This document shows positions 1,510 to 15,152 of a DNA stretch of 22,500 nucleotides, piece by piece; the stretch's first letter is position 1; each line of letters begins with the position of its first letter. Made by a program: the position numbers and the translations under genes. The DNA is taken from assembly GCA_018398765.1 (NCBI GenBank), contig JAHBMJ010005839.1:1-22500 (forward strand), written 5' to 3'. The DNA is from Chromera velia. Lineage: Eukaryota > Sar > Chromeraceae. Under the pieces are notes generated by a model, which was not told the DNA's origin, ran no database searches, and saw only the letters and a list, made by a program, of their open reading frames with translations.

Positions 1510-3142
1510 TTATGACATTCACTCTACTGGTTGCCCTGAGAGGGCAATTTTGATCTTCCATCACGAAGGGCACGGCCCGTCTCCACGCAAAGGGGCCTAC
1601 GAAGTTGCCCCAGTAAAGTTTCCATTGAATCCCTTCCGTACGTGCGCTCTAACAAGCTCTAGATGAGGAGCTGGAAAGGCTTTCTGGATGAGGGGGCCAG
1701 CTCTGGGTGGCCAGAAGGTGAGCCACTTTATGAATTTTTGCATATCTGTGCTGCAGGTCAGACTGAGCCTTTCTCGGAGGACCGTTTGTCGGTGCTTACG
1801 TTTCGTGAGGAAGCATTGCGGCTGGTAATCTCGGGTGATCTGAAGTTGTGGGAGTGAGGCACAGCTCTTGTTTGCATGAGAATTTGGAGGTAGGGCTCCT
1901 GGGTGGACTAAGACCTAGTGGCCAGTGCCGGGCCTCACTCAGAAAAAACAAGAACGCTATGATGGCTAGTCGTGGGCAAGGCCCTCTGGCTAGAGGCCAT
2001 TGATCGATCAGGCTTTCAGAAGCTAAGCATTTACCTCTTGCACGGTCATAGTGCTCAACATTTGTTTGGTTGAACTGCTTTTTGTGGGTGTGAAATCGGC
2101 AGATCTGTTTGCGGATATTCATTCTTACCTTTCATGGAGGTTGCCCACTGTGTGCTCCCTCCTTACATCAGTGTGTGAATTCGGAGTATTCCATTAGAAG
2201 TAAAAGTTAGCTTGTCTGTGTATTACACTGCGTATTGTCACATGTCTGTAGAGTCTGCAATCACTCCCCGACATATCAACATACTATAACTCTTTCACCT
2301 CACTCACGTCCAATAATTTCCAACATACACACCACAAACCCATTAAACCTTATCTTTAAAAGTTGTTCATACTTTCATGCAGGTAAGAAACAATAAATAG
2401 AATCATTCTAAGTGCTTTAAAGACTTAGTTTTTTATATAAAATTTAGTGTGATACATAGAAAATTAAAAGTCACTTTCTAGTACAAAAGTTTTAATTGTC
2501 AGTACAGTCAGTTACCGCCTGTTGCAGAACATTACAGAACATCCAATGGGACAGGAGTCACAGGAAAACCCGCCTCTCCACTTTTGCTGTAGCAGGTGTG
2601 ATGATCGTTGTTTCTTCACAACTATACCACCTTATCTGCTGAAACTTAGCCTGAAAGGAGTTAAGAGATTGTTAGAGAGAAATCAATGAGATTATGGTAC
2701 TGATTGTGAAATACAGAGCTGAAATGCAGAGCACATGCAGCGCTGCAATTTTGTCAAAGGTTTTTGCCAGCCAAGATTCTAAAGCGCGCACATTAAACTC
2801 CTTCTTGGATTTTCTTGGAACTTATATCGATATAGCTTTGGATGGCCAGTGCCTTTTCTGACAGTCGGCTGGAAAGAGCACTCGGCGTCTTCCCAAATTC
2901 TCAACTGAACAAGATTACAGCCCTCGATAGTGCCCAGGCAACTAACCTGTCAGGAGACATCAGGCATGTGCCACGTTTTGAGACGACGAACTGTGCCCTG
3001 AAAGTCTCGCTTTGCACCGAGCCAGCTTGTGTGGATATGGCTGTTTGACGAGAGGCCTCCTCGATCATTGTTTCGATCTCTGCTTCTTCGGGGGGATCAA
3101 TCGTTTCGCTTTTTAGAACCTCTTTTGTTGCGCTGAGCGTGA
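1510..3142. other. Non-coding region upstream of the DnaJ gene
   Basis: No convincing gene is visible. 1510-2130 is mixed-composition sequence holding a 64-codon open frame (1663-1857) without recognisable features. About 2160-2520 is AT-rich with many short A/T runs. The last few hundred bases before 3143 should contain the promoter and 5' UTR of the DnaJ gene, but no specific element can be named. Confidence 0.5.
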
Positions 3143-6100
3143 ATGACCGACGCAAACCGCAAAATGTCGCAGGACAGTCTTGAAGGGAGGTCCGAGAGTT
3201 ACTATGGCGTCCTCGGAGTCTCTCCCGAAGCTCCCCTTGACGAAATCAGAGCGGCGTACTATCAACTCGCAAGACAGATGCACCCAGACAGGTCTGTCAC
3301 AACGACGGACTTCGTTTGTTCTGCGCACAAAGACGTGAATACCAACATCTGACGTGCAGCAGTTCCCCTCAGTCTGACAAGAATCGATGCCGTCTCCTTC
3401 CTCCTTTTCTCTCATACGGTCTTGCATTTCCCCCCTCTCTTCTCAAGAAGCATTTGGGGAGCGCTTGTGCCCGTCCCTGCACATATGTCGTGTTCACTTA
3501 AATGGGTACACATCAGGTTCTCTCTCTCTCCTCCTGATCTGTGGTTTGCAGGGCCCCGACAAGCAACCTCGAGTACGAGAAGTGGTCCCGAGTGCAGTGC
3601 GCCTGGCGGTGTCTTCAGGACCCCACAAAAAGGTCTGTCTGTTCGATTGTGTGCTTTTTTTTGCAGCTCCTTCTCTTCCTCTTCCATCTCGTGACCTTTC
3701 GCTGACAGTCTCATTTCCTTTCTTTGGGCGCAACATGCTCTCATTGAATTCGTTGTCTAGTGTCCCTCTCGAGTTTGCCTCTTGCCATTTCTTTTGTTGC
3801 TTGCAAATGCTGTACCTTCCATGCCTTCTCAGCTGCCCCTCTCGCAGTTTTCCCCCTTCCTTCCTTCCTTCCTTCCTTCCTTCCTTCCTTCCTTCCGTCC
3901 TTCCTTCCTTCCATGTATACTTTGCCTTTGCTTGGCTTGCTTCTGCGCCTCCCCTTCCCTTTACCTTTCGTTCTTCTCTGCTGCTCTTGCAGGAAGTTGT
4001 ACGACATCCGCATGGGACACGCATCTGGGGAGGAGGAGGTGCGTTGGCTTTTTGTCCATCTATTTGTCTGTTGGTCTTGAGTTTTTCCTTCTCTCTGTAG
4101 GTCTGTCTTTCTGTTTGTCTGCCTCCTAGCATTTTTTGTTTTTTGCTCGTCTGTGCATCTGCAGTGCACGATTTGTTTGTTTTCCTCATCCCTTCTGTCT
4201 TAGTTGTCATTGTTTGTCGGCTCTGGATGTCCTTTCTCTTTGCCCTTCGCTTCCCTCCCTGCCTTTACGTGCGCAAGCGGGGCGGGGGTCTTTGCCGTCT
4301 CATTTTCTTCTGCTGGGCGACTGCTGTTTGAACGACAGTGTAGAAGGATGCATTTTGTCCCCTGCTTCTTTCCTTTTCTTGGTTTTTCTTCAGATGGAAC
4401 GATTGTACGAGATGCAAAGGAAGGACGCAGAGAGAGACCTCGAGAATATGGTCAGTCAGCCAATTGGCGTTGTCTTCTCTCAACGACCTGTATTCGATGT
4501 TCTGGTACTTCTTTGCGTCCTCTCCGTCGCCTTCCATCCTTCTTCTTTCTGCCCTGGTTGTTATTTTGCACTCGGATGCAGCAAAGGCAAGACTAGACAA
4601 GGCGTATCTAACACCAAGATTTCCTTTCTTCTTTGAATGCAGCAAGAGCACTATCGTTCGGTGGTTTCTAAGGAGAAGAAGGTGGGGGGTGTAATTGTTG
4701 ACATGGCCCTGTACGGCAACCTGAGGCACAAGGACGTGAGGAAACTGGCTCTAGAACCCCGAATGCAGGGTGAGTCCCCATCAGTCTGTCTGTTTGGATG
4801 AATGGATGGATGGATGGATGGATGGATGTAAGTCTTCCTTCCTCTCTCGTGATTGCCCACTCACCCTTCTTTTCCTTCCCCTCCCGCTCCCCCTTTTTTG
4901 GGTCCTTCTCGAGATGCACACATTGGGGGGTCTGTTCTTCGAGGCGAAGGGGAAGAGAAAGCTCGTGAGGGCATTTCATTTTCCTCTTTCTTCTTTCCCT
5001 CCGTGTGGGTGGCCTCTATTTCCATCTCGCCTAGGTTCATCTCCAGGGACCCTCTTCAGCCATTCCCAGATTTAAATGTGAACACATGTATGTGTGTCAG
5101 GTAGATTTTCCCGTCTGTCTGTTCGTTTGTTCAGGGTTCATCTCCAAAGACGACCTGGAGGGCCCCCTGGTGGACGTTGCCGTCCCTTGTCAGTGCCTGG
5201 TGGAGGACCACAGGCTTATTCTTCCAGGGAGTGGCACGGCCTCGAAGGAGGACATCGCGGGATTCTTCAACCCCCTTCCTCTGCTGCACCATAACGGGAG
5301 GGGGGAGAACGTAGAGTTGGGCCTGTATGTTAGGTGCGTGGGTGGGTGGGTATCTGGGGAGGGTCAGCATGCTGTGGTTTTGCAATCTGTTTGTTGTGGC
5401 CTTGCTTCCCCTTTTTCACTGTTCAGCTTTTCTACTTTTTTTTCTCAACCCCCCCTTCACTCCCTCTCTTCCCCCCTCCCCTTCTTCTCCTTTCCGTGCA
5501 TGTGTGTGTATGTGTGTGAGGGGGTTGCGCAGGTACATTTTCAAAGGAGCCCTTCATGAGGTGACGGTGGCAGACACAGACACGCTCATGTTGCCTCTGC
5601 GCAAGCACAAGTGCATGGGGGGCAAGCCGAGAGGACCTTTTTCGGAGACCAACGCGGACGTTTTGGCAACAGTGTTCGGTCCGGAGAGTTACAGTTCGTC
5701 GTCGTCAAGCGGTCTGGACTTCAAGGGGAGGAGTCAATTTGAACGTCGTCAAGCGGGGCACGCACGAGAGTGCATTTTTGGTCCCATGATGAACGCTTGG
5801 ATAGGCGGTGTCGCTGAAAAATTGGGGGGAGAGCTGTGGGGGGTTTCGGGTGCGCGTTTGTTTGCAGCGCTGTTCTCTGTTGGATGCTGTTTCTCCTACA
5901 TTTATCTGTTTCGGTACAATCGCGATCAGTGGCTTGCATCTCTTCGTCTGAACCCCACGTCCTTCCTGTTAGGGCAGATGAGGGAGGGGGCCCGCAAAGC
6001 TGTGGTGGGATGGTGGAACTCATTGGTTGAGCGCGTGTTGCCCTCTCAACCCTCGGAGAGGGCGAAGGAGTGGCTGTCTGACGTCACCGAAGTTTGGAGA

Positions 6101-6187
6101 AGGGGGGCACGGGATGCAGCAGAGGGAGCAAAGAAGGAATTCGACAGATTCAGATTCGCCCAGTTGAGGAATGCAGTGATCTTCTGA
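3143..6187 (+). CDS. DnaJ-domain protein with DUF3395 (DNAJC11-like), seven exons
   Basis: Exons: 3143-3291, 3552-3632, 3993-4038, 4394-4450, 4643-4769, 5135-5333, 5533-6187, all GT-AG with compatible phases, giving 437 residues. Residues 20-81 form a J domain (YYGVLGV, then AYYQLARQMHPDR with HPD at 47-49, ending RKLYD), the part that stimulates Hsp70 ATPase. Introns 1 and 2 interrupt it, intron 1 falling in the codon just after HPD. About 125-250 matches DUF3395, the C-terminal domain of DNAJC11, by its order of conserved segments (GGVIVDMALYG, VDVAVPCQCLV, IAGFFNP, FKGALHEV). Family DNAJC11 proteins sit at the mitochondrial outer membrane with MICOS. The long middle region of animal DNAJC11 is absent, and an extra C terminus carries a likely membrane helix at about 328-348 followed by a charged amphipathic tail. 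A second ATG lies at codon 8. Domain calls are strong; location is inferred. Confidence 0.85.
3854..3912 (+). repeat. (CTTC)n microsatellite in intron 2
   Basis: A run of CTTC units with one CTTC-to-CGTC interruption lies inside intron 2 (3633-3992) of the DnaJ gene. The whole intron is strongly pyrimidine-rich on the coding strand. Confidence 0.95.
4795..4828 (+). repeat. (GGAT)n microsatellite in intron 5
   Basis: About eight GGAT units with one GAAT variant, near the 5' end of intron 5 (4770-5134) of the DnaJ gene. Confidence 0.93.
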
Positions 6188-13273: not shown

Positions 13274-14872
13274 ATGTTGCCGAATTCTGTGGCGTCACTT
13301 CTTTCACTTGTCCTGGGTTTCACTCACTTTCATCAAGGAGAGGCGCACGGCTGGGCAGAGTTCCCCAAAGCACGGCAACAGTTCTGCTATGAAGATGGAA
13401 CGAACGGGAGGTGGTTCAACAGCTTCGACAACTCTGCGTGTCAGGCTGCCTTTGACGTTTCTGGAGAGTACGCAATGGTGCAGAGAAACGAGTTCGCTTC
13501 GAATGTTCTCAACTTCAATGATCAACAAGCAGTAGAGGCAGTCGTGAGGGACGGGCTTCTTTGTTCAGGTGGAGATACAAGGAAGGCGGGGATGGACGTC
13601 CTCACTGCATTCTGGCCGAGAACGGAGTTGGCTGCTGGACAAACGTTCACCTACAGATTCCGAGCAACCGCCCCCCACTCCCCCTCCTTCTGGAGGTTCT
13701 ATATCACCAAACCTGACTTCAATCCCGCAACTAAGGCTCTCGCATGGTCTGACCTCGAGTTCCTCGTAGAATTCGGGAATATTCCCGTTGTCAATGGATT
13801 CTACACAATGGATATCCAGATGCCCAACAGACCTGAAGGCTCCACCGCAACTTTCTACACCCGATGGCAGAGGGACGATCCTGCCGGTGAAGGCTTCTAC
13901 ATGTGTTCTGACGTCACCATCACAGGCGGCACCGGGACCGGCACAACCACCCCCTCTCCAGAAACTACCACCACTACCACTCAAGCCTCTTCAGGAAACC
14001 CCCAGTGCTCTGGTGCTCCTTGCCCAAACTCCTCCCAATGCCGCTCACGATGGAATTTCTGCGGAACTACCAGCGCTCACTGCAACGACCAATCCACCTG
14101 GGTGCCTTCATGCAACGGAGGAACTACACCCACAACCACCACACCTGCTCCCAGCACCACTACTACCACCACAACTCAAGCAGCAACTACAGCCTCACCT
14201 CCCACAAGCGGACAGTGCGGCACCCCCTGTCCTAATACCTCTCTTTGCCGTTCTAAATGGGGATTCTGTGGTTCCTCCCCTGCGTATTGTAACGCTGAGT
14301 CGCTCTGGACCCCCGCCTGTCTCTCTGACGGCACCCCCACGACAACCCCCACACCTCCTCCCACCACCACCACACCCGCTCCACCTACCACCACAGCCCC
14401 GACAGGCTCAGCGAAGTTCTACGCAAAGAGCTGGACGGGTGGTACAGTAGTGGGCGGAGTTTGGAGGCACTTCTGTGCGTGTGCAGAGGTTTCGTGGGCG
14501 ACCCCCTTCTCCTCTGAGGGTGCGTGCCTTGACAGCTGGAGAAACGAAGACGTGCCCTGTGCGGACGCACGGAGGCTGATGGGAGACGAGGACACCTTCC
14601 CACTGCGCACACAGGGTAAGTGAGAAGAGGAGAAGAGATAGTTACACCAAGAGAGGTCTGAGTGTACGTTCGATTTCTCGGTAGATCCCTCTATCTGTTC
14701 CCTCACACTCTCTCTCGCCTGTTCCGTCTCTCTCATCTCCCTTTCCTGCTGTCTTCGTCTATCTGTTCTCTTTCACTCTCTCCTTCTCTCTGTCTCGGGG
14801 TCCCTGTCTCTGTCTCTGTCTCTCTCTCTCTCTATTTATCTATCTATCTATCTATCTCTATCTATCTATCTA

Positions 14873-14914
<42 letters not shown>

Positions 14915-15152
14915 AGTGTGGGTGTATGTGTGCATACATGTGCGCGTGTGCTTGTGCTTGCATGCATGTGTTCGTGTGCGTGTGCGTGTACTTTTCGCCT
15001 TCGTCTTCCCCTCTCCGAGTCAAAAAAGTTCTCCGACAAAACAAGCAAGACGCAAGTCCAAAGATCGATACGGAGAGTTCTCTGTCTTGGAGATGCATGC
15101 ATGATCTTTTTTTTTTTTGCTATTTGCAGGCGTGCCTCGGGACGAACACTGA
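13274..15152 (+). CDS. Secreted AA10-type lytic polysaccharide monooxygenase with two hevein-like (CBM18) modules
   Basis: Exon 1 is 13274-14615 and exon 2 is 15130-15152 (AGG|GTAAGT to TTTGCAG, phase 1), giving 454 residues. The ATG at 13274 gives a signal peptide of about 24 residues ending GEA, so the mature protein begins HGW. A free N-terminal His is what the copper histidine brace of LPMOs requires. The second brace His is H135 in ATAPHSPSFWRFYITKP, and F208 in GFYMCSDV is the likely axial Phe. Residues 25-217 follow bacterial (actinomycete-like) AA10 enzymes, which oxidatively cleave chitin or cellulose. Thr/Pro linkers join two six-Cys hevein-like domains, 245-280 and 315-349 (CPNxSxCRSxWxFCG). 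Residues about 380-454 are an unrecognised Cys-containing tail. The long uninterrupted exon contrasts with the six-intron DnaJ gene. The LPMO call is strong; substrate is inferred as chitin from the CBM18 modules. Confidence 0.88.
14616..15129 (+). other. Intron of the LPMO gene, microsatellite-rich
   Basis: This 514-bp intron opens with GTAAGT and closes with a poly-T tract and TTTGCAG. It contains pyrimidine-rich TCTC/TCTG sequence (about 14755-14834), a TCTA tract and a TG tract. If retained, translation would stop at 14621-14623 and replace the last six residues with a single Lys. Confidence 0.85.
14833..14912 (+). repeat. (TCTA)n followed by (TG)n microsatellite
   Basis: TCTA units from about 14833 to 14873 change directly into an almost pure TG run at 14876-14912, all inside the LPMO intron. 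Confidence 0.94.

Follow-up and report, generated by a model that had tools for sequence, protein, structure and literature searches.

Lytic polysaccharide monooxygenases (LPMOs) of family AA10 are predominantly bacterial (PMC3620520), and members of the family cleave chitin and/or cellulose (PMC10154629, PMC3620520). The characterised enzyme closest to the one described here is AsLPMO10B of Aliivibrio salmonicida, which cleaves chitin, serves chitin use and infection, and for which the residues His26, His136, Phe208, Glu206 and Trp46 are listed (PMC9361615). Eukaryotic AA10s have been described from fungi and ferns, namely the enzyme of Ustilago maydis, which acts on fungal-wall chitin, and the fern protein Tma12 (PMC10617569). 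A module of the CBM18 type is found on fungal LPMOs of the architecture AA9-X280-CBM18, whose catalytic family differs from that of our protein (PMC10154629, PMC8615602), and the pairing of AA10 with CBM18 has already been mentioned in print as a personal communication (PMC6767633). Reviews list other modules with AA10 (PMC3620520, PMC10154629); the available part of the 2023 review gives CBM18 with AA9 only (PMC10154629), and the term has 0 occurrences in the available text of the Ustilago AA10 paper (PMC10617569). Our literature search found no paper combining Chromera velia with lytic polysaccharide monooxygenase and no alveolate AA10, one dinoflagellate proteome paper containing LPMO only in its reference list, and the words chitin, hevein, cellulose and monooxygenase do not occur in the main text of the chromerid genome paper (eLife.06974). 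Three points appear new to us: the affinity of the gene to Gammaproteobacteria, its six-cysteine modules expanded in the host and a C-terminal module common to two LPMO families.

The window, i.e., the whole stretch of 22,500 nucleotides that was analysed, forms the beginning of a contig of 64.6 kb in an assembly of 177.8 Mb and 4040 contigs. A start ATG at position 13274 of the forward strand opens a frame that runs unspliced to a stop at 14621-14623. Removal of a predicted GT-AG intron at 14616-15129, whose donor and acceptor were read from the sequence, yields a protein of 454 amino acids with a TGA stop at 15150-15152, so that the initial annotation had placed both ends of the gene (13274..15152) correctly. 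Long TC and GT microsatellites are present at 14800-14920, within the predicted intron. The gene codes for an AA10 LPMO preceded by a predicted signal peptide and followed by two hevein-like modules with Thr-rich linkers and by a C-terminal module, and the mature protein would start with HGWAEFP after the predicted cleavage. The C-terminal module, like the two paralogous AA10-hevein loci described below, does not appear in the initial annotation. The features are as follows:

13274..13345, + strand: predicted signal peptide, aa 1-24, cleavage before His25 (between GEA and HGW; translation judged by eye)
13346..13927, + strand: AA10 LPMO catalytic domain, aa 25-218 (Pfam LPMO_10, PDB match, predicted fold)
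13346..13348, + strand: codon of His25, the mature N-terminal His of the copper brace (alignment)
13676..13678, + strand: codon of His135, the second brace His (aligns with His136 of AsLPMO10B)
13895..13897, + strand: codon of Phe208, the axial Phe (aligns with Phe208 of AsLPMO10B)
14006..14113, + strand: hevein-like module 1, C245-C280, CRSRWNFCG, hevein Tyr30 replaced by His (Chitin_bind_1 and module alignment)
14216..14320, + strand: hevein-like module 2, C315-C349, CRSKWGFCG...YC (Chitin_bind_1 and module alignment)
14402..14615, + strand: C-terminal module with four Cys, common to an AA15-like LPMO on contig C1284 (genome search and pairwise comparison)
14616..15129, + strand: predicted intron, GTAAGT...TTTGCAG (splice signals read from the sequence alone)
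15130..15152, + strand: predicted last exon, protein end GVPRDEH, TGA at 15150-15152 (sequence reading)

The family of the domain, its active-site residues and fold, the expansion of the modules and the paralogs were all established by computation. The Pfam profile LPMO_10 matched aa 25-214 with an E-value of 9.1e-42, but this profile (PF03067) alone is unspecific, as it also matched an AA15-like protein of the same genome (locus L004, see below). In the PDB, the domain matched 30 different sequences at E<=0.01, and 7okr, the AA10 domain of AsLPMO10B, ranked highest (E 3.8e-53). The fern AA10 chain 6if7 was farther away than the vibrio enzyme (E 1.8e-22), and the Ustilago enzyme is likened to our protein by description only. 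The AA15 structure 5msz was absent from these 30 matches and was found with the AA15-like protein of the genome, and judging by names, none of the 30 is presumably an AA15, AA11 or AA9 enzyme. The initial annotation had claimed a mature N-terminal His, a second His and an axial Phe, and all three are indeed present as His25, His135 and Phe208, invariant in 32/32 aligned rows. Every one of the residues listed for AsLPMO10B, including Glu206 and Trp46 of Loop 2, had a counterpart in the alignment, which covered the whole catalytic domain at 48% identity. The AlphaFold model of the protein showed pLDDT blocks of 75-98 across the catalytic part, most of them above 90, while the hevein-like modules had values of about 55-78 and most linker and C-terminal stretches stayed below 50. 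Foldseek again had 7okr at the top, with a TM of 0.94 (normalised by target) and an rmsd of 1.3, followed by other AA10s, while AA16 and AA9 entries came last among the 50 rows listed, with TM values below 0.6. A scan of NCBIfam gave GbpA as the sole match, at 43.7 bits far below its cut-off of 481. Because the profile, the best PDB match and the top Foldseek match all point to AA10, the family assignment of the initial annotation stands. An AA15 or AA11 identity was rejected, the closest PDB structures being AA10s. The catalytic domain is an AA10 domain with the residues of the copper brace, which would be expected to bind copper and to allow oxidative cleavage.

The part of the protein downstream of the catalytic domain sets it apart from its bacterial relatives. 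Chitin_bind_1 of Pfam matched two stretches, with 34.4 bits for the whole protein vs. a cut-off of 27.8. Each of the two modules contains six cysteines, whereas hevein has eight, and hevein Cys18 is replaced by Arg. Hevein and CBM18 share what we take to be an eight-cysteine pattern with a CC pair (the CC was seen in our hevein alignments), from which the modules in the window deviate. We therefore call them hevein-like rather than canonical CBM18; the initial annotation, which had named two CBM18 modules, is supported in so far as both are of the chitin-binding type. The sugar-binding residues of hevein are presumably Ser19, Trp21, an aromatic residue at 23 and Tyr30. The Ser, Trp and aromatic positions are kept in the window modules, module 2 retaining the complete set with Phe at position 23 and module 1 having His for Tyr30. 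With this replacement and two Cys fewer than in hevein, chitin binding by the modules appears plausible but not assured. Chitin_bind_1 was found in 0/10 bacterial AA10 proteins scanned at E<=0.01 (10 out of 88 loci), including 0/9 of the gammaproteobacterial relatives other than AsLPMO10B, whose full-length sequence was not among the scanned proteins.

Because a genome-wide search with the Pfam hevein profile was uninformative, giving no match even at known copies, we used the module itself as a query and obtained 37 matches on 11 contigs (E<=0.01), 31 of them outside AA10 loci. The position of hevein Cys18 was occupied by Arg (23) or Lys (1) in 24/24 distinct modules extracted (C[RK]S; loci L085-L116), a set that was found with a six-cysteine query, had to fit the pattern and left out matches on C1149 and others without a locus, so that eight-cysteine copies may be missed. 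One module-bearing frame was scanned on each of eight other contigs; all of them matched Chitin_bind_1, although below the cut-off on C1407 and C3885. No catalytic domain was found in these eight frames (E<=0.01); other exons and two more module-bearing frames (C1658 and C1662) lay outside the scan. On C3885 (L106) and C3915 (L134), six-cysteine hevein-like modules are joined to SUEL lectin domains. The initial annotation had described CBM18 as a type best known from plants and fungi, but borrowing of CBM18 from there is unneeded, as they belong to a six-cysteine hevein-like family that has expanded in the host genome.

LPMO_10 matches the genome four times, at the window and on contigs C1294, C3254 and C1284. 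The locus on C1294 is an open AA10-hevein-hevein frame, read without its 3' end, with a catalytic domain 65-67% identical to that of the window. The third AA10-hevein locus (L003, C3254:5496-8981) has its pieces in different frames and an internal stop and represents a pseudogene or an assembly error. The fourth (L004, C1284:23437-27147) codes for an AA15-like domain (5msz, E 1.8e-6) in one frame and for two CBM_1 stretches followed by a C-terminal module in the next, suggesting a joined protein across the two frames. This C-terminal module is the only recurrence of the window's own in the genome (E 4.2e-5); aligned with each other, the two are 39% identical across 59 columns (E 1e-10 in a single comparison). 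A model of the module had a mean pLDDT of 70, which is of moderate confidence, and matched no PDB fold at E<=0.001. The predicted LPMO on C1284 therefore shares its last module with the window protein but differs in its AA15-like catalytic domain and its CBM_1 modules. This suggests module swapping, in which AA10 and AA15-like LPMOs of one genome have different binding modules and one common C-terminal module.

Weighing these data, we lean slightly towards a secreted, copper-dependent and chitin-oxidising AA10 LPMO, whose AsLPMO10B-type domain would have been acquired by the lineage of the alga and joined to host modules, and whose likeliest substrate would be the alga's own wall. The alveolate alga would have taken up an AA10 domain of the gammaproteobacterial AsLPMO10B type and added two six-cysteine hevein-like copies together with, in this paralog, the C-terminal module of an AA15-like LPMO. 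The hevein-like modules would hold the enzyme on chitin, the Thr-rich linkers may represent flexible, probably O-glycosylated spacers, and the histidine brace would oxidise the chitin chains. A chitin-containing wall or matrix of the alga itself may be loosened in this way at division or spore release, with chitin from outside as a close second.

The case for chitin made by the alga comes from an exon matching Chitin_synth_1 with 27.1 bits (cut-off 25; E 3.7e-4) over 40 residues, a profile that matched 0/14 control genomes. The exon contains EDR and is weakly similar to solved chitin synthases (E 0.013 in the PDB), and its longer frame matched no Pfam family at E<=0.01. The chitin-synthase-like exons are located at about 2214-3000 of locus L133 (C3724:58000-66000), with QRRRW about 650 bases downstream of the EDR exon in another frame; we take both EDR and QRRRW to be chitin-synthase motifs. 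The statistically weak, motif-based match makes chitin of the alga's own plausible, and because the genome has such exons, its own wall is a real candidate substrate.

Somewhat less probable in our view is that the same chitin-oxidising enzyme is used on chitin of corals, crustaceans, diatoms or fungi, for feeding, attachment or defence. Judging by their names, its nearest bacterial relatives are mostly marine, and many come from genera known to be associated with animals. The infection-related role of AsLPMO10B (PMC9361615) would fit such a use, as would the presence of a GH18 piece, the only one from an exon-by-exon search of the genome, and a life near bacteria and corals, as stated for Chromera in the authors' response to the genome paper (eLife.06974). 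The chitin-synthase-like exons speak against it, as do the many hevein-like proteins that have no catalytic domain in the frames read and would fit a chitin-containing matrix of the alga's own.

As to the source of the catalytic domain, the initial annotation had called it actinomycete-like, which the comparisons contradict. A pattern scan of a bacterial and archaeal collection confirmed 190/232 candidate stretches, and the best 80 of these 190 were all gammaproteobacterial by organism name and mostly marine, headed by Endozoicomonas, Photobacterium and a Cellvibrionales MAG (52-56% identity), with Vibrio at 53%; the patterns came from an alignment including the Vibrionaceae sequence 7okr, so that the scan leans toward this group. 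The same collection of genome contigs gave no relative when scanned with the single window sequence, the alignment-derived patterns being required. When plasmids were searched with the window domain as the sole query, which avoids the Vibrionaceae lean, 43 records were obtained, comprising 14 of Vibrio and Pseudoalteromonas with 44-53% identity, 28 of Streptomyces, Nonomuraea and Embleya with 28-36% identity, some across only ~63% of the domain, and CbpD of Pseudomonas (n=1) with 35%. Scans of viral contigs yielded no confirmed relative of the domain. In a tree of 90 rows, the branch leading to the six actinomycete rows was 1.61 changes per column long. An actinomycete origin was rejected because of this separation and identities of 28-36%, compared to the 44-56% reached by the types from Vibrio, Endozoicomonas and Pseudoalteromonas.

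The same tree joined the window domain and its paralog as a pair (support 100/99) and placed this pair among the gammaproteobacterial rows together with two Vibrio-Shewanella groups at 85/80, and a tree of 53 rows gave 89/62 for the nesting of the host pair, both supports being below the tool's starred level. Nearest by path length were Endozoicomonas-type rows. Approximately unbiased (AU) tests did not reject, in the tree of 53 rows, a clade of all 49 gammaproteobacterial rows excluding the host pair (p 0.397) nor, in a tree without actinomycetes, a grouping of the host pair with five Endozoicomonas-type rows (p 0.208). Since alternative placements are left by both values, the trees prove neither the exact donor nor a strict direction. 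The domain is firmly bacterial-type by its sequence, and lateral transfer from bacteria is likely. The authors' response to the chromerid genome paper, in a section later removed, stated more than 100 lateral gene transfers per chromerid (eLife.06974). The transferred domain with eukaryotic modules proposed in the initial annotation is thus retained as to the bacterial-type domain and the chitin-binding-type modules, while its direction of transfer goes beyond the nesting in the trees.

The proteins of Endozoicomonas, Photobacterium, Thaumasiovibrio and Pseudoalteromonas share with the window protein an AA10 domain of up to 56% identity, the N-terminal His and a multimodular layout, but end in GbpA_2 (9/9 scanned, below the cut-off in L011) and partly CBM5/12 (3/9) instead of hevein-like modules. 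A more specific scenario is put forward tentatively: the coral-associated alga may have taken an Endozoicomonas/Vibrio-type AA10 gene from reef bacteria, swapped the GbpA_2-CBM5/12 tail for modules of its own, duplicated the gene and now oxidise its own chitin. If so, it would represent an alveolate AA10 with host-made targeting. Independently of this scenario, the gene ties a bacterial-type, presumably chitin-oxidising domain to a chitin-binding-type module expanded in a photosynthetic, probably marine relative of the malaria parasites, and it opens the synthesis and remodelling of chitin in such algae to testing.

We consider it unlikely that the gene does not go back to a recent bacterial transfer at all, but to an old eukaryotic AA10, a transfer in the reverse direction or a route via another eukaryote. 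A position of the host pair outside all gammaproteobacterial rows used would agree with the AU test (p 0.397), the identity of only 65-67% between the two paralogs in the catalytic domain indicates that the gene is not newly arrived, and AA10s do exist in fungi (PMC10617569) and ferns (6if7, the only eukaryotic AA10 in our comparisons). Against these points stand the much closer match of the domain with the vibrio enzyme, compared with that of the fern, and the predominantly bacterial distribution of the family (PMC3620520).

Returning to the preferred chitin-oxidising enzyme, a protein acting mainly on cellulose or another glycan appears improbable. The family includes enzymes cutting cellulose (PMC10154629, PMC3620520), and the AA15-like LPMO of the genome is paired with CBM_1, a fungal cellulose-binding domain, but the closest solved relative of the window domain is chitin-active, and the appended modules match a chitin-recognition family of Pfam.

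The gene looks like a genuine part of a nuclear genome. At 5086-6184, the window contains a DnaJ-like C11 C-terminal domain, the one known domain recognised among the neighbours of the gene (8 frames scanned), of which the piece at 5086-5559 scored 30.5 bits, above the cut-off, and a continuation in another frame scored a weak 12.9 bits, below it; this is probably a DnaJ-C11-like neighbour gene with an intron. With 0.61, the AA10 part has a GC3 close to that of two neighbours (0.56 and 0.60), but one of five bacterial relatives has 0.62, so GC3 alone is indecisive. The assembly contains 58 matches to light-harvesting proteins and 11 to the alveolin profile, which also matches Caulobacter among 14 controls, and no match to Photo_RC. 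The host is accordingly taken to be a photosynthetic alveolate, probably Chromera velia. The published Chromera velia assembly comprises 193.66 Mb in 5953 scaffolds after its authors removed bacterial contamination from the raw data (eLife.06974). Despite this precedent, bacterial contamination or an assembly chimera is rejected as practically negligible, given the predicted spliceosomal intron, the DnaJ-C11-like neighbour, the host-family modules within the same open frame as AA10 and the AA10-hevein loci on contigs C1294 and C3254, and the gene can be regarded as nuclear and, as initially annotated, eukaryotic. The contig itself starts with an inverted repeat at 1-1509, with arms at 1-752 and 758-1509 that are 99% complementary and separated by a 5-nt spacer; it may have arisen by folding back of the assembly where the contig ends, or represent a fold-back element.
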